A stretch of DNA of 64,000 nt from Rhodococcus sp. KBS0724 (GTDB lineage: Bacteria > Actinomycetota > Actinomycetes > Mycobacteriales > Mycobacteriaceae), in the NCBI RefSeq assembly GCF_005938745.2, contig NZ_VCBX02000001.1, positions 4,788,501 through 4,852,500 of the forward strand. The letters are read 5' to 3'. The notes under the pieces were generated by a model. That model was given only the letters and a program-made list of their open reading frames with translations. It did not search any database and was not told where the DNA came from. Shown piece after piece: positions 19,646-64,000 of this stretch. The translations under genes were made by a program, and so were the position numbers. Every line of letters starts with the position of its first letter. Position 1 is the stretch's first letter.

Positions 19646-19665
19646 AACCTACGGTTCCGTAGGTT
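19646..19665. promoter_or_regulatory. 9-bp-arm palindrome upstream of the acyltransferase
   Basis: AACCTACGG-TT-CCGTAGGTT is a perfect 20-bp palindrome that begins 17 bases before the acyltransferase start and covers the last codons of the prophage repressor gene. TetR-family repressors of lipid genes bind palindromes with TACGG/CCGTA cores, so an operator is plausible. Because it lies at the chromosome-prophage junction it could also be part of an attachment region. Confidence 0.5.
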
Positions 19666-19921
19666 TGCCTACTCTCGGCAGATAATCGAACGGATTCTTG
19701 GTCAAATCAGCCACATCTACCCCCAGTTTTTCGGCTACATGATCGAGGTCGTCCAGTTGCCAGGCGTTGCGCCGAAGGCAGCGACTCGTCTTCGCTGTCG
19801 TCCAGCCGAGGAGCTCGGCAAGGTCATTGTCTCGGCGCAAACCACGGCTGGGCATCAAAGTCAGCACGTTGGCGCTAATGCGCTCACGAAGTGTCTGTGT
19901 CGGGCGTTCCGTCGTGGTCAT
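19649..19921 (-). CDS. phage repressor-like HTH protein
   Basis: This 90-residue protein has a lambda-repressor/Xre-like helix-turn-helix (DNDLAELLGWTTAKTSRCLR) and a short C-terminal segment (DDLDHVAEKLGVDVADLTKN) typical of Xre proteins that dimerise through little more than the HTH domain. It is the only leftward gene at the start of the early region and faces an HTH gene, like an immunity repressor opposite cro. The start at 19921 (MTTTERP) is preferred because a dyad follows 20-38 bases upstream. It is short for a CI repressor, lacking a peptidase-type C-terminal domain, so no RecA-stimulated self-cleavage is expected. Confidence 0.8.
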   Translation of the reverse strand: MTTTERPTQTLRERISANVLTLMPSRGLRRDNDLAELLGWTTAKTSRCLRRNAWQLDDLDHVAEKLGVDVADLTKNPFDYLPRVGKPTEP

Positions 19922-58073: not shown

Positions 58074-58960
58074 TGCCAATTCGGAGCATGGCGGTAGTGC
58101 CGGCGAACACAACGGGGTCGGGTGGCGCGCTGACCGATGTGACGGGCGTCAGTTACAGCGCGTCCAACGGGTACGGCTCGAAATATCACCTGTACGCGGC
58201 CGGACTCGACTGGACGAAACCAGTCGGGCTGCTCGTCCACTTCCACGGCGACGGCGCGTTCGAGTACAACAACCCAACCAACGCGTGGATGCTCGGCGGA
58301 GTAAACGGGATGATCGCGCAGGCGAAAGCCCGCAACATGATCCTGCTCGTTCCGCTCACCCCGGATGATGCGGTCGGCCGATTCACGTGGTGGGCGTGGT
58401 ACGGCAAAGAGGAAAACCCGAGGTACGCGAAGGATCTGATCGCGTACATCCTGGGCCGGTACAAGATCGACAAGAAACGGATCTGGCTCTCCGGGTATTC
58501 CGGCGGAAGCCAGTTCATTACCCGGTATCTGTTGCCTCACTTTGGTGTCGACCTCGGCATCGTCGGCGGCGGCTTCATCTGCTTTGCTGGCGGGCAAGCG
58601 CCCGCGTCGACATTCGCACCGTACAACCCAGCATTCAAGGCGGCGTGGCATTGCAGATGGGTTGCCGGTGCCCTCGACGACGGCACCGGTTCGTCCGATG
58701 GATTCAACGCGATCGCAGCATCGAATGCCGGTGCCGCCTGGTATTCCGGGCAAGGCTTCGTCACCGAGGTCACCCAACTCGCAGGGAAGGGTCACGACCT
58801 CGACGGACTGTACGGTCCGAACACCGGATCCGAGATCGACGCCCGGCCCGTCCCCGCAACACTCGCCGAGATGAAGAAACTACGCCATGGAGGGCAAGTC
58901 ATCAAAGAAGGCCGCACCTTGATTGGCGGAGTCCTCACCACCGTCTATAAATCCACCTGA
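58073..58960 (+). CDS. alpha/beta hydrolase of the tail-fibre cluster
   Basis: A 295-residue serine hydrolase of the alpha/beta-hydrolase/PHB-depolymerase-like fold. GLLVHFHGDGAF is the oxyanion strand, and IWLSGYSGGSQFITRYL holds the nucleophile in G-Y-S-G-G. An Asp (DDGTGSSDG region) and a His (GKGHDLDG) are well placed for the triad. It is coupled to the last fibre gene. Two readings fit: a virion esterase acting on cell-surface lipids or polymers, or a LysB-like mycolyl esterase that frees the outer membrane in lysis. The unusual gene order, far from the endolysin, favours the first. Confidence 0.8.
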   Translation: MPIRSMAVVPANTTGSGGALTDVTGVSYSASNGYGSKYHLYAAGLDWTKPVGLLVHFHGDGAFEYNNPTNAWMLGGVNGMIAQAKARNMILLVPLTPDDAVGRFTWWAWYGKEENPRYAKDLIAYILGRYKIDKKRIWLSGYSGGSQFITRYLLPHFGVDLGIVGGGFICFAGGQAPASTFAPYNPAFKAAWHCRWVAGALDDGTGSSDGFNAIAASNAGAAWYSGQGFVTEVTQLAGKGHDLDGLYGPNTGSEIDARPVPATLAEMKKLRHGGQVIKEGRTLIGGVLTTVYKST

Positions 58961-58969
58961 ATACCTACC

Positions 58970-59012
58970 GCACAAACGCCCCACTCTCCTAGTGAGGGTG
59001 GGGCCTTTGTGC
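58970..59012 (+). terminator. large hairpin terminator of the late operon
   Basis: A 10-bp stem CCCCACTCTC/GAGGGTGGGG with loop CTAGT sits inside outer arms GCACAAA (58970-58976) and TTTGTGC (59006-59012). It lies 10 bases after the hydrolase stop, ending the long rightward late operon. The TTT in the outer arm may be the release region. Confidence 0.82.
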
Positions 59013-59384
59013 ATTGAAGTGAGGGAGGAGCTCACCGGTGCAGGCGGTGGTCACGGTGCGCCGTTCGAGGGCACACCCGGCGAGCGACAGTTGGTAGGCA
59101 GGCAATCTGTGGCGAACCTCGCGTCCGATATCGCCGCGGCAACCGATGGGATCGGGTCGAACCCTCCCGCCACTGACGAAATAAGTAGCCAGAAAGCGGA
59201 CCTGATGCCTCGGACATAGACAGGCCCCGCTGGATGGGTCGGCGCAACTGACGAGCGACCGAGGCAGGCGCCGACGCCGCGGCGCGTGTCCTATCCACCC
59301 CCTGCGACAAGGCCTTTTGCGGTGAGTGGACTAGAATTGACTCACAACTAGAGAAAATCGTCCACTTGAATGTAGAGTTTCCCC
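59013..59384. other. 372-base gap with probable promoter region of the IetAS-like pair
   Basis: No convincing gene is seen. A short open frame crosses the terminator and has poor coding character. The first 300 bases are GC-rich. The last 60 are AT-richer and hold a TTGACT hexamer (59337-59342) inside an inverted repeat GTGAGT-N12-ACTCAC (59322-59345), plausibly a -35 element under an operator. No clear ribosome site precedes the ATG at 59385. Confidence 0.5.
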
Positions 59385-60536
59385 ATGTCTCGCACCATAG
59401 AATCGTCACCTCGGAATACTAGTGAGCAAATCAGAACTGATTTAGTCCAGCTTGCGCGCTTGGCTCTAGCCGGACGTCCGCAGGATGTTGAAGCCTACAT
59501 TCAACGCCTCGTTCGCCGTTACAGACCCACAGACTCAGAGGTGGCAGATTCACTCCGGGACCTTCTCCGATCAGGAGCGGTGGCAGGCGCTCCCCTACGC
59601 TCCGCGACATCGCCGGCACCCGTCGACGTCGATTCGCGAATGACACTGTTACGTTCGGATATGACCGGCGCACCGCAATTTGCGCCGATATTGCAAGCGG
59701 CCGCAATGGATGGATTGGTTCAACTCCGTGATGAGAGGAGAGGAGCTGATCGGTTGGAGGAAGCAGGTCTGTTGCCAAGCAGGACTGCACTTTTCACAGG
59801 GCCGCCTGGAGTTGGCAAGACGTTGTCCGCACGTTGGCTGGCCGCCGAACTTGACCTGCCGCTTCTGGTACTTGACCTCAGCGCGGTAATGAGCAGCATG
59901 TTGGGCCGCACGGGCTCGAACCTACGGCGTGTTCTTGATTACGCCAAGCAGCAACCAAGCGTGCTTTTGCTAGACGAACTCGACGCAGTTGCCAAGAAAC
60001 GAAACGATTCTACAGAGGTTGGAGAGCTCAAAAGGCTTGTCACAGTCCTGATTCAAGAGATCGATGATTGGCCGACGACTTCTTTGTTATTAGCGGCAAC
60101 GAACCATGCCGAACTGCTCGATCCGGCAATTTGGAGAAGATTCGATCATGTGATTCCATTCGGCTTGCCCGGGCAGGTCGAGCTAGTATCGGCGATCGAG
60201 CGTTTTCTCTTGCCGAGCACTATTGAGCGTAGCCTCGTTGATTCCCTGGCAATCGCTATGGACGGCGCTTCCTTCAGTGATGTCGAGCGTGTCATAAACG
60301 CGGCTCGCAGGAAGTCTGCAATCACTCAAAGTGAATTGAGTGAGGAACTGCTGGCGTTCGTTCAGCGACACGTAGAAGACCTGCCTGCGCACGAGCGCCG
60401 AAGGCTTGCCGTTACTCTCTCTCAGCAGAAGTCCATTTCGCAGCGACGCGCTAGTGAAATCACTGGTGTAAGCAGAGACACGATTAGGTCGTACGCAAAG
60501 AGCGTGCGTGAGGGTGAAGGAACTGAAAATGGCTAG
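59385..60536 (+). CDS. AAA+ ATPase, IetA-like defence component
   Basis: A 383-residue ATPase. Residues 1-110 are a helical N-domain. Walker A GPPGVGKT lies near 138, Walker B LLLDELDAV near 194 and the sensor AATN near 237, followed by an Arg-finger pair (WRRFDHV). A C-terminal HTH-like segment (QKSISQRRASEITGVSRDTI) is unusual. The gene overlaps a subtilase gene by 8 bases. The two-gene layout AAA ATPase + S8 protease is that of IetAS, reported as an anti-phage system and earlier as a plasmid incompatibility locus. GC is visibly lower than in the structural genes. Confidence 0.82.
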   Translation: MSRTIESSPRNTSEQIRTDLVQLARLALAGRPQDVEAYIQRLVRRYRPTDSEVADSLRDLLRSGAVAGAPLRSATSPAPVDVDSRMTLLRSDMTGAPQFAPILQAAAMDGLVQLRDERRGADRLEEAGLLPSRTALFTGPPGVGKTLSARWLAAELDLPLLVLDLSAVMSSMLGRTGSNLRRVLDYAKQQPSVLLLDELDAVAKKRNDSTEVGELKRLVTVLIQEIDDWPTTSLLLAATNHAELLDPAIWRRFDHVIPFGLPGQVELVSAIERFLLPSTIERSLVDSLAIAMDGASFSDVERVINAARRKSAITQSELSEELLAFVQRHVEDLPAHERRRLAVTLSQQKSISQRRASEITGVSRDTIRSYAKSVREGEGTENG

Positions 60537-62763
60537 TTCGAATAGGAATTTCATCCTTGGGTACGGCGAGCGACTCGTCAAACCGATAAACGCGCCGCCT
60601 AGTCAGCTGATTAAGGCTGATGCCTACACAATCGAAGAGGCATTCGTACGCCTCGCTCCGATGGCCAGTGCAGCAGTCGCAGCTTTCGACTCATTGCCTG
60701 ATCTTGCGCGACCACGTGACGAAGTTGTCGGGGTGATTACTCTTCATCCAGAGTGGATCGCCAAGTCTTATTATCCGCAGCAGCTATTGAATTCGACTGG
60801 TTTGAGAGCAGTTGGCAGCAAGCCTGTCGAGATAACTCCCTCGAAGTGGACCCGCAAGGGTGATCCCGAACCTCGACCGTCGACGGACTTGTTTGTTGCT
60901 GGCGAACGCTCCGCGTTCCGCGATTGGGCCCAGATCCTAAATTCAGGGCAACTCTCAGCGAGCTCCGCCGAGATTACTCAAATCGAAACAATCCGTGCGG
61001 CCACGGTTTCAGAGCGACTGAAGGTTGGAATCGAGTCCGAAGAACCCGCCGATTTCTATGAGATCGTGCTGCATGCGACGTCGTCCGGTAGCTCAAGTTA
61101 CATCCTTGAAGGCTTCGTGGAGTATGCCGACTCGATTGGCGTAACAGCCTTGGCAGATCGTCGAGTATTTGCTGGTGGGCTTTGCTTCATGCCAGTTGGC
61201 ACTGATTCGTCAGGTGCCTCGGAGCTTTCGAAATTCTCGTTCCTGAGGACTGCACGGCCGTTGCCCCGACTCCGTTCACTCAGCCCGATTGAACGATCGA
61301 CGCCTGCGACCAATGTCCCTCCTTCGGCGCTTCCGGATGCCGACGCTGTCGATCCGAACGTAACCATCGCTGTCTTCGATGGAGGTCTGGCTCCGTCCGA
61401 CCTGGACAGGTGGGCAGACGCACACGACCCCATAGGAATTGGTCTGGCCGATGATGTTTACCTCGACCATGGGCACAATGTCACTTCGGCGCTTCTGTTT
61501 GGTTCACTGACACCTGGACGTCCAGCAGAACGTCCATTCACACGAGTTCATCACCACAGGGTTTTGGACGATAACTCACACTCCGACCCTCTCGAACTTT
61601 TCGATGTACTTGAGCGAATCGTAAATATTCTCGAGCAGCGCCCTTACGAGTTCGTAAGTATGAGTATCGGCCCGGCTCTACCGATCGAGGACGATGAAGT
61701 CCATGTCTGGACTGCGAAGCTCGACGAAATGTGGTCAAGCGGTGCGGTACTTGCGGCGGTTGCAGTAGGCAATACTGGCGAAATGGATCGAGCTTCAGGT
61801 AATGCTCGCGTTCAGGTCCCGAGTGATTGCGTCAATAGCCTAGGAATAGGTGCTGCCGATAGCTCTACAGCGGACTGGCGGCGAGCGGCTTATAGCTCAG
61901 TCGGCCCAGGGCGTTCCCCAGGTTTGATCAAGCCTGATGTGCTCAGTTTCGGCGGCGGGGAAAAAGAACCCTTCTACGTCTATGGAACAGACGCTCCGGC
62001 ACTTCGACACACTGCGGGCACAAGCTTTGCCACTCCAGCAACAATTCGACTTGCCGCAGGAGTTCGCGCCCACTTCGGCAATCACTTAACTCCGGTTGCG
62101 TTAAAGGCGCTTCTCATCAATGCAAGTTCGAGTCGATCAGAGCTCGCCAGAAATGAAGTGGGTTGGGGTCGAATTCCGTCTACCCTGGACGAGCTTGTTA
62201 TCTGCCCCGATGGGACTGCGCGGGTCGTGTACCAAGGAAAGATACGGCCAGGAGGTTGGACGCGAGCCGCACTTCCACTGCCCGAAGGCGACCTCGATGG
62301 CATGATCACTGTGCGCGCCACGTTCTGTTTCTTTGCGCCGGTAGACCCTCAGGACCCCGGAAACTATACCCAGGCAGGATTGGAAGTCGTATTTCGTCCT
62401 CACCTCGAAAAGTTCGATAATCCTGACGCAGCCAATCCGAGTACGAAGTCCTTCTTCAAACGAAGTGACTATATGCACGAGGATGAACTACGTATCGACG
62501 CTCACAAATGGGAAACAACACTGCATCGCAGCCAGAGATTTCAGTCGAAAACACTGCATCGCTCGGTATTTGACATTCACTACAATGCTCGCGAGGGCGG
62601 CTCTCAGAGTCGAGCGACCGAAGAACTGAGCTATGCCTTAGTGATCTCGCTGGAATCCGCGAAAACTCCTGACCTGTATGACCGAGTTGTCCGCACCTAC
62701 GCCACACAGCTAGAAGTCCTCAGCCCTACAATATCGATCCCAATCACAACTGGGACACCGTAA
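60529..62763 (+). CDS. subtilisin-family (S8) protease, IetS-like defence component
   Basis: A 744-residue serine protease. The triad is visible: Asp in VTIAVFDGGLA near residue 282, His in DHGHNVTSALLFG near 313 and Ser in GTSFATPATI near 497; VSMSIGPALP lies between. There is no signal peptide, so it acts inside the cell. The N-terminal 270 residues and the C-terminal 200 are not subtilase and may bind the partner ATPase or a trigger. The ATG at 60529 with AAGGA 7 bases upstream overlaps the ATPase stop. A perfect terminator follows. Function is inferred from the IetAS pairing, not shown here. Confidence 0.82.
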   Translation: MASSNRNFILGYGERLVKPINAPPSQLIKADAYTIEEAFVRLAPMASAAVAAFDSLPDLARPRDEVVGVITLHPEWIAKSYYPQQLLNSTGLRAVGSKPVEITPSKWTRKGDPEPRPSTDLFVAGERSAFRDWAQILNSGQLSASSAEITQIETIRAATVSERLKVGIESEEPADFYEIVLHATSSGSSSYILEGFVEYADSIGVTALADRRVFAGGLCFMPVGTDSSGASELSKFSFLRTARPLPRLRSLSPIERSTPATNVPPSALPDADAVDPNVTIAVFDGGLAPSDLDRWADAHDPIGIGLADDVYLDHGHNVTSALLFGSLTPGRPAERPFTRVHHHRVLDDNSHSDPLELFDVLERIVNILEQRPYEFVSMSIGPALPIEDDEVHVWTAKLDEMWSSGAVLAAVAVGNTGEMDRASGNARVQVPSDCVNSLGIGAADSSTADWRRAAYSSVGPGRSPGLIKPDVLSFGGGEKEPFYVYGTDAPALRHTAGTSFATPATIRLAAGVRAHFGNHLTPVALKALLINASSSRSELARNEVGWGRIPSTLDELVICPDGTARVVYQGKIRPGGWTRAALPLPEGDLDGMITVRATFCFFAPVDPQDPGNYTQAGLEVVFRPHLEKFDNPDAANPSTKSFFKRSDYMHEDELRIDAHKWETTLHRSQRFQSKTLHRSVFDIHYNAREGGSQSRATEELSYALVISLESAKTPDLYDRVVRTYATQLEVLSPTISIPITTGTP

Positions 62764-62814
62764 AGTGTTGCGTAACTAAACCTTACGGATTAGCAGCACA
62801 TCGACTACGACTAA

Positions 62815-62845
62815 CCCCGCCGATCCTCACGGATCGGCGGGGTTT
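62815..62845 (+). terminator. intrinsic terminator after the protease gene
   Basis: A perfect 12-bp stem (CCCCGCCGATCC / GGATCGGCGGGG) with loop TCAC is followed by TTT, 52 bases after the protease stop. It ends the ATPase-protease transcript. Confidence 0.88.
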
Positions 62846-62855
62846 GTCGCGGCTT

Positions 62856-62882
62856 GGTTGGCATACCAACCTCGCATGCGAG
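62856..62882. promoter_or_regulatory. two adjacent palindromes before the Cys-rich gene
   Basis: GGTTGG-CATA-CCAACC (62856-62871) is immediately joined to the 12-bp palindrome CTCGCATGCGAG (62871-62882). They lie 86-112 bases before the Cys-rich gene. They could be operators or part of an attachment region at the end of the element. Confidence 0.4.
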
Positions 62883-62967
62883 TATCGGTCAGGTCGATCG
62901 CGGGGCCCGGCTAGTCTTCCCTTACCCTCCGGACCCCGCATGGTCAACGATAGCATTAATCGAACGT

Positions 62968-63195
62968 ATGTGCGAACATTCGAGTGTGTCGACCGTCGAA
63001 CAATCCCCCATTTGCTGCCCCAACGGACACCCATTCACGGCCAACTCGTGCTTGGTCGGATGGGAAGTCTGTGGATGCGTCCAGGCGGAGAATGGCGGGC
63101 ATCGGACCCACTACTGCAAAGCCTGCGGCGAGACTGTTCGGACGCCGCAGTGCGCGGGAGCTATGCCGCAGACGGATCGATGGAGCAGTCGGTAG
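62968..63195 (+). CDS. small Cys-rich zinc-binding-type protein
   Basis: A 75-residue protein with seven or more Cys and several His: SPICCPNGHPFTANSC, WEVCGCV, HYCKACGE and PQCAG, the look of a double zinc ribbon. The ATG at 62968 is chosen because the polar sequence upstream is not conserved-looking. It lies between the protease terminator and a leftward, probably chromosomal gene. It may belong to the prophage's end or the chromosome. The function is unknown. Confidence 0.55.
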   Translation: MCEHSSVSTVEQSPICCPNGHPFTANSCLVGWEVCGCVQAENGGHRTHYCKACGETVRTPQCAGAMPQTDRWSSR

Positions 63196-63237
63196 ATCAC
63201 AAAGTCAACTCGTAGCATATCTACCGGAGAGGTTCTG

Positions 63238-64000
63238 TCAGGTGTTGGCGCGGCAGTACTCATCAGTGTTGCCAGCGTCCTTGCAGGCCCACCAGTCGAT
63301 CTGCGATTGAACCCACGGTGATGGCGTTTTGGGTGCGTTCTCGTCCGGGCGTGTAGCACCGTTCGGGTAGGTGCAGATAGTGCCGTCACAGGTGGCTGTG
63401 TTCGCTGCGCTTTCAGCGTCGGCCGAGGCCTGCAATTGGGATGCGCAGTAGTCGGTCTGGCCACGAGTTCCGTCGGAGTACAGGGTGTTTTCGTAGATGG
63501 GGTAGTCACATTTGACGATGACTTTCGGTGTCACCGGTTCGGGTTCTGGCTCGACCGAGGGGGCTACAGGGGGTGCGCTCGTGGTTGTCACCACAGGAGT
63601 GTTCGTTGGAACGGTGACAGCTGGCATCGCGATCGTGCTACTGGCGGGTGTTGATTGCGTGACCTCGAATGCGCCCTGATTGTCGAGGGTGAGGAACAGT
63701 GGCTCGTGTACGAATGCCTGAGGGTTTGGGAATCGGTTGGCTACTGTGATCCAGCCTTGCGATTTTCCTCCGACCAGGGCGGTGACTGCTTCGGGATATG
63801 CGTCGCGACAAGAATGATCCCCGGAATCGAGTGCTTGCGTGAATCCGCCTTCGTCGTTGATTCTCAAGGTCGACGAGTCCGGTGCCACCATGTCTCTCGT
63901 TCCGGCATGGAGTTCAACTTTGATGCCGAGCAGTTGCCCTGGCCCGTTGGTTTCAGCGTCGAATTCGCTTACGCAGGCCTGGGGAATCGCAGCGACTTCA
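63238..64000 (-). CDS. extracytoplasmic-type protein, N-terminus outside window
   Basis: The leftward frame is open from 63238 through the window end, so at least 254 residues are visible and the N-terminus is missing. The first part (ACVSEFDAETNGPGQLLGIK, then VNELHA-like strands and GGFTQALDSGDHSCRDAYPE) is beta-rich and resembles DUF4352-type domains. A Thr/Pro-rich linker (TVPTNTPVVTTTSAPPVAP) and a Cys-paired C-terminus (CDGTICTYPNG, WWACKDAGNTDEYC) follow. Such a protein would be exported or surface-attached. An ATG at 63891 inside the frame is not necessarily the start. Confidence 0.7.
   Translation of the reverse strand, partial: EVAAIPQACVSEFDAETNGPGQLLGIKVELHAGTRDMVAPDSSTLRINDEGGFTQALDSGDHSCRDAYPEAVTALVGGKSQGWITVANRFPNPQAFVHEPLFLTLDNQGAFEVTQSTPASSTIAMPAVTVPTNTPVVTTTSAPPVAPSVEPEPEPVTPKVIVKCDYPIYENTLYSDGTRGQTDYCASQLQASADAESAANTATCDGTICTYPNGATRPDENAPKTPSPWVQSQIDWWACKDAGNTDEYCRANT

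Follow-up and report, generated by a model that had tools for sequence, protein, structure and literature searches.

The window analysed here comprises 64,000 nucleotides of Rhodococcus sp. KBS0724 DNA (C1:4788501-4852500 of the 7.25 Mb genome) and carries, within a prophage, two adjacent forward-strand genes, ietA and ietS, preceded by a predicted operator. Rhodococcus qingshengii supplies the nearest named proteins (P0008 and P0122). The first, ietA (59385..60536), encodes an AAA+ ATPase of 383 amino acids with a C-terminal helix-turn-helix (HTH; residues 335-381, 60387..60527 on the forward strand), modelled as helices 335-346, 353-360 and 364-381. The second, ietS (60529..62763), encodes a subtilisin-like (S8) protease of 744 amino acids counted from its ATG, or 751 from an alternative GTG start upstream. 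Both frames are open, and their coordinates agree with an earlier note on this DNA, made from the sequence alone, which had described an ATPase gene overlapping a subtilase gene by 8 bases, with an intact D-H-S triad and no signal peptide in the protease. The triad, D284/H314/S499, is invariant in all 112 aligned proteins (own included), as is the oxyanion residue N415, and the IetS N-terminus, as judged from its sequence, shows no hydrophobic stretch resembling a signal. In IetA, residues K145, D197, E198, N240, R251 and R252 are invariant in 117 of 117 proteins, own included. The two products match PF00004 (6e-30) and PF00082 (2.5e-17), respectively, and the predicted structure of IetS matches subtilases, with an S8 fold.

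The same note had likened the pair to IetAS, and the profile search that it proposed bore this out. IetA matched PADLOC PDLC02196 with an E-value of 7.6e-83 (residues 17-373 on profile positions 4-370 of 374), and IetS matched PDLC02197 with an E-value of 1.4e-39 (residues 62-724 on positions 61-731 of 749); the two genes are adjacent with the ATPase first, and the catalytic residues of both the ATPase and the S8 protease are intact. On sequence grounds, the window pair belongs to the IetAS family, whose members are known from defence screens to resist phages, as the PADLOC and NCBI names imply. We collected 133 loci with relatives, 53 of them on viral contigs and 80 in genomes, the latter being the best of 263 found. 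A same-strand ietA lies upstream of ietS in 129 of them, the other four having fewer than 200 bases before ietS. An ietS frame opens at most 21 bases from the end of ietA in 128 of these 129; L154 has an interrupted ietS. Each of the 120 aligned IetA proteins is matched by a PADLOC IetA model, and at 128 of 129 loci the match extends to the C-terminal end of the IetA profile. The proposal that the C-terminal HTH and the IetS N-terminal part define a new subtype by their domain borders is thereby ruled out, both lying within the family profiles.

The resemblance to IetAS of pTiC58 and to the IetAS defence family extends to gene order, the combination of an AAA+ ATPase with an S8 protease, and profile matches; for pTiC58 it is a likeness through family profiles. 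The only NCBI-named iteS in our plasmid list (H79) is 25% identical to the window IetS over 76%. Phages phiT5282H and PfAC08 and the Paenibacillus phages Dash, Callan and Yyerffej carry adjacent matches to both window proteins, their IetS being 25-39% identical over 93-97% of the window query. A search for near-identical phages gave no DNA match to the ietAS pair, and matches between the prophage segment 34000-58900 and phage records covered ~1% or less (best 20 of 25). Full-length IetS was found in one of 28 genus genomes, its own (G004 has a 60-residue match in a 69-amino-acid frame), and IetA at E <= 1e-70 in three of 396 genomes of the phylum, own included, one of the three with an internal stop. 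A word search of the searched text of the actinobacterial defence survey PMC10482375 returned no word starting with Iet.

Ahead of ietA lies a 38-bp inverted repeat, TGGACTAG...ATCGTCCA (59327..59364, forward strand), which ends 20 bases before the ATG and which, from a motif shared among relatives, we predict to be the IetA operator. As a class, inverted repeats showed a modest enrichment upstream of ietA (mean best score 7.0 vs 6.0 in shuffles, n = 117), and the spaced pair TGGA-N24-36-TCCA was present in 46 of the 117 distinct upstream regions (counts here and below include the window's own) vs 64 of 2339 background windows from the same loci. A half-site matrix built from 42 of the TGGA...TCCA regions, with 1755 windows as background, placed 74 of the 117 regions above the 99th percentile, 61 above the 99.9th and 56 above 15 bits, with a span of 37 in 50 of the 74. 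The window site scored 28.2 bits, the 99.9th background percentile being 10.8. The resulting family form is an inverted repeat of 37-38 bp, TGGAC(T/G)A...T(A/C)GTCCA or TGGAAGA...TCTTCCA, found ahead of ietA in several bacterial phyla and in 40 of 61 clusters formed at 75% identity. With clusters held out, 76 of 124 tests (four splits pooled) passed 15 bits vs none of 992 background windows. The pattern TGGACKAN{22,24}TMGTCCA has a single exact match in the 7.25 Mb genome, which is the window site (one match in the window vs 0.01 expected). A new set of 41 loci, from which we left out 20 rows repeating earlier regions and L198, which lacks ietA in the frames read, yielded 20 new and distinct upstream regions, of which 10 came from plasmids, 9 were viral and 1 came from a genome: seven scored at least 19.7 bits with a span of 37 or 38, one scored 15.0 with a span of 40, two had weak sites and ten had none. 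In many beta- and gammaproteobacterial loci, calls at offsets -39 to -48 scored ~7-15 bits; these look like coding sequence, the start having been misplaced by the script rule, and were kept out of the covariation. A simple arm scan had chosen a different, unrelated repeat as the best ahead of the window ietA. At two loci, L044 and L065, two tandem IetA-type operators stand ~75 bases apart before ietA, the second of L065 being imperfect.

The IetAS family itself is known, and the conserved family operator at ietA is the new element of this analysis. No report of it was found among titles, the starts of abstracts and the sections covered of PMC5006074, PMC8562856 and PMC10954446; the founding pTiC58 work falls outside that coverage, and an earlier report is possible.

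When 53 loci were aligned on the repeat, TTGACA-like bases peaked at -16 to -11 and TAnnnT at +8 to +13 from the repeat end, with a spacer of 17 bases (a TTGACA match of at least 5/6 at exactly -16 in nine of the 53). In this profile the 3' arm of the operator falls between the -35 and -10 elements, so that a bound protein would block RNA polymerase. The window carries a predicted -10 element, TAGAGT (59373..59378, forward strand), at the place of the TAnnnT peak, a proposal that rests on the 53-locus profile; its -35 is unrecognisable, and a sigma-70 scan found no promoter ahead of ietA. Transcription of ietA probably starts at or beside the ATG, which would make the mRNA leaderless.

The comparison of IetA residues with operator bases was limited to sites above 15 bits, because many weaker calls look like coding sequence. 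Among 366 IetA positions, the best predictors of arm base 5 (C/A) were 365 (D/E) and 363 (S/A), with z-scores of 19.3 and 11.1, the third-ranked position having 5.0; for arm base 6 (G/T), position 363 ranked first (11.3), followed by 350 (7.1) and 182 (6.3). Counted over 56 loci, all 12 with E365 had A in the two arms; D365 went with C in 35 and with mixed arms in 2, and the single N365 with A; A363 went with G in 22, mixed arms in 2 and T in 2, and S363 with T in 17, mixed G/T in 6 and another base in 2. Cluster representatives, which are not fully independent, gave Fisher p-values of 2.6e-5 and 6.4e-4 with mixed arms left out. In the new loci, L243, with an ARE helix, has AAGA arms, and those with D365 have ACTA or ACGA arms, except the mixed L244. 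Residues 363 and 365 stand at the start of the modelled recognition helix (364-381), and HTH residues Q353, R354, R364 and R368 occupy invariant columns of the 120-protein alignment. We propose S363 and D365 as the specificity residues of the window IetA. Family conservation together with the covariation rules out the HTH as a chance match, and the DNA-binding control that the earlier note had suspected for this pair gains support as a family trait, predicted from the HTH, the operator, their covariation and the overlap with the promoter.

The reading that we prefer, with a probability of about 0.8, is that this prophage-borne IetAS is a toxin-antitoxin type pair for defence or stabilisation, in which the HTH of IetA binds the 38-bp repeat and the operon represses itself. 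IetS would be a cytoplasmic subtilase toxin kept in check by the ATPase IetA, which through its C-terminal HTH would also occupy the repeat overlapping the ietAS promoter and so repress the operon. The balance between IetA and IetS would be disturbed if another phage infected the cell or the element were lost; the protease would be freed, the operon derepressed and the cell stopped. Very probably, IetA represses its own operon, as appears from the conservation of the operator, its unique match in the genome, the arm between -35 and -10 and the covariation of residues with bases. By its sequence, the unit has what a type II antitoxin should have, a predicted DNA-binding domain with a matching site at its own promoter. 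The comparisons support the family, the intact active sites, the agreement of operator with recognition helix and the place in a prophage; we infer the repression, the trigger, the substrate of IetS and, for this host, that IetA neutralises the protease.

Two described relatives are toxin-antitoxin pairs, a point absent from the earlier note. In sgiAT of Salmonella genomic island 1, the AAA protein is the antitoxin and the subtilisin-like protease the toxin (PMC5006074); like the window pair, sgiAT combines an AAA+ and a subtilisin-like protein on a mobile element, although its carrier is a mobilizable island and not a prophage, and the likeness is drawn from its description. In mycoplasmas, TA132/3, an AAA-ATPase with a subtilisin-like protease, is a working toxin-antitoxin pair (PMC8562856), chromosomal, unlike the prophage-borne window pair, and similar to it by description. 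On regulation, the sgiAT paper says for its own case that 'mechanisms of regulation ... remain to be identified' (PMC5006074). A conserved operator with a predicted recognition code would give a direct handle on regulation, and on whether defence and incompatibility depend on it.

Several observations weigh against a self-repressing toxin-antitoxin pair of this kind. The window proteins miss the cut-offs of the NCBIfam IteA and IteS equivalogs (239.1 vs 510 and 106 vs 900 bits), under which the pair is therefore not filed. Taken by itself, the window repeat is unremarkable as an inverted repeat, 4 of 12 shuffles containing one equally good, and its support is comparative. A site above 6 bits is absent from 43 of the 117 first-set regions and 10 of the 20 new ones, and regions without an operator come mostly, but not exclusively, from divergent clades, two close relatives, L204 and L240, also lacking a site. 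Six D365 loci have A arms and five S363 loci have G arms. In a tree built from IetA minus its HTH, each trait had only three supported independent pairs; in the tree pairings the base either followed the residue or stayed unchanged, with the opposite in 1 of 200 for 363 and none for 365, but the tree test alone for covariation between operator and HTH was non-significant. Finally, an sgiAT construct with its native promoter did not kill in one test (PMC5006074); a self-repressing IetA would fit both this result and the open regulation of sgiAT.

The predicted AAA fold of IetA matches PAN, Vps4 and FtsH, and 116 of 117 proteins conserve a pore-loop pattern, (L/Y/F)-L-G (the window protein has M-L-G), alongside the ATPase residues invariant in all 117. 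These features would also suit a single ATP-driven protease, in which IetA, like FtsH or PAN, would unfold the substrates of IetS and neither partner would act as antitoxin or toxin. We consider this unlikely, since the protease of sgiAT, like that of TA132/3, is toxic on its own and is neutralised by its ATPase partner (PMC5006074, PMC8562856).

The HTH might alternatively serve mainly as a sensor, an IetA ring on DNA detecting phage takeover or competing replicons, with self-repression secondary. HTH and operator are kept across phyla, and IetAS of pTiC58 affects incompatibility besides stability, according to a title cited in PMC5006074, both of which a sensor would explain; but the one exact match to the operator pattern in the genome is the unit's own promoter, and the 3' arm occupies a position typical of repressors, so that we give this version little credence. 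Still less probable is that operator and HTH are associated through shared ancestry only. The scarcity of independent contrasts speaks for it, as does the score of position 182 for arm base 6, a residue outside the HTH; however, ancestry would raise many positions alike, whereas for arm base 5 two recognition-helix positions stand at 19.3 and 11.1 and none elsewhere exceeds 5.0. That the repeat, near the start codon as it is, acts as an RNA leader hairpin or attenuator instead of a protein-binding site is hardly credible, as it lies upstream of the predicted -10, should thus stay untranscribed, and has bases that covary with the HTH.

A bolder form of the preferred toxin-antitoxin reading is possible, and we offer it tentatively: IetA would be an operator-bound AAA+ antitoxin with a two-residue HTH code, promoter occupancy would be coupled to toxin control, and takeover of transcription by a phage, or a second replicon bearing the same operator, would free the protease. 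Under the code, which we hold as tentatively as the rest, S363/D365 would prefer TGGACTA, A363/D365 TGGACGA and A363/E365 TGGAAGA. If true, the code and the coupled toxin control would explain both defence and incompatibility.

The N-terminal part of IetS seems to include a subtilisin-propeptide-like fold, a tentative assignment from the secondary structure of the model, in which residues ~173-250 (61045..61278, forward strand) form a beta-alpha-beta-beta-alpha-beta arrangement. The pro-enzymes 3whi and 2zwo align with IetS from residue 173 over 331 and 325 residues vs ~250 for mature subtilisins. Residues 1-97 had no fold match and residues 98-172 were covered in 1 of 50 rows (3afg); this is no evidence for a new fold. 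A sequence search for a solved IetS relative returned one match, at E 0.87 and unrelated.

The earlier note had also placed the pair, at lower GC, after a late-operon terminator and before a terminator of its own. GC is indeed 0.54-0.56 at 60001-63000 vs ~0.62 across most of the window, and terminator-like hairpins with 19-nt arms occur on the forward strand at the end of the late operon (58970..59012, arms 89% complementary) and after ietS (62808..62849, 95%); their T-tails, however, are weak, and a consensus terminator scan flagged neither. Rfam gave no match up to E 1 in 58800-63400.

Prophage carriage was confirmed by a synteny break, an attachment-site repeat and phage genes. Synteny with genus relatives (G003, 88% identical) breaks at window position 19667 and resumes at C1:4855492; a 15-bp core, read by eye as a direct repeat, stands at attL (19653..19667, forward strand) and, beyond the window, at attR (C1:4855498-4855512). 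Terminase, portal and tape measure proteins were recognised, with a tyrosine integrase next to attR. Given the synteny break and resumption, the repeat at both ends and the integrase by attR, the prophage is ~47.3 kb long. The earlier note had the pair at the end of the prophage; it is near the right end but not at the very end, attR lying ~4.2 kb further on and outside the window. At the other end, a small HTH gene (19649-19921, reverse strand) matching the repressor family phrog_4583 (8.4e-5) terminates within the attL core region. Its stop codon is supplied by host DNA, so after excision the phage protein would have another C-terminus, an arrangement that resembles integration-dependent immunity.

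The right border of the cargo slot holding ietAS is a conserved 40-bp GC-rich hairpin (62900..62939, forward strand; arms 62900-62910 and 62929-62939) without an Rfam match. It is 85-90% identical in L179, L180 and L183 and lies inside longer matches in L181, L182, L184, L185 and L186. Prophage regions of the genus that otherwise diverge keep the element, and in several it precedes a small conserved gene; one of these, L185 (G000:C1:4116000-4128000), is a second region of the own genome, prophage-like by its open reading frames, with the same border element and small gene. The slot, from tail gene to 40-bp element, recurs in two related genomes, four regions of G022 and one of G013 having it. 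In L181 it contains a SocA/Panacea antitoxin gene whose partner belongs to no known family, in L182 an RmrA-type HTH-metallopeptidase gene, in L183 RmrA plus RmrT, in L179 open reading frames without a family, and in L180 little; a recognisable defence or toxin-antitoxin module is thus present in three of the five, which suggests that related prophages swap unrelated modules of these kinds at one slot.

Elsewhere, part of the IetAS family lies among other defence genes. This follows from a scan for open reading frame clusters within 5 kb of the pair at 77 genome loci (80 were fetched), one representative of each cluster being annotated: multiubiquitin-E2 genes were found at 12 loci, ThiF at 9, patatin at 5 and a CBASS-type cyclase at 5. 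On rhizobial or related plasmids (L244, L245, L246), as at several genome loci, IetAS adjoins or lies near ThiF genes, often with multiubiquitin/E2.

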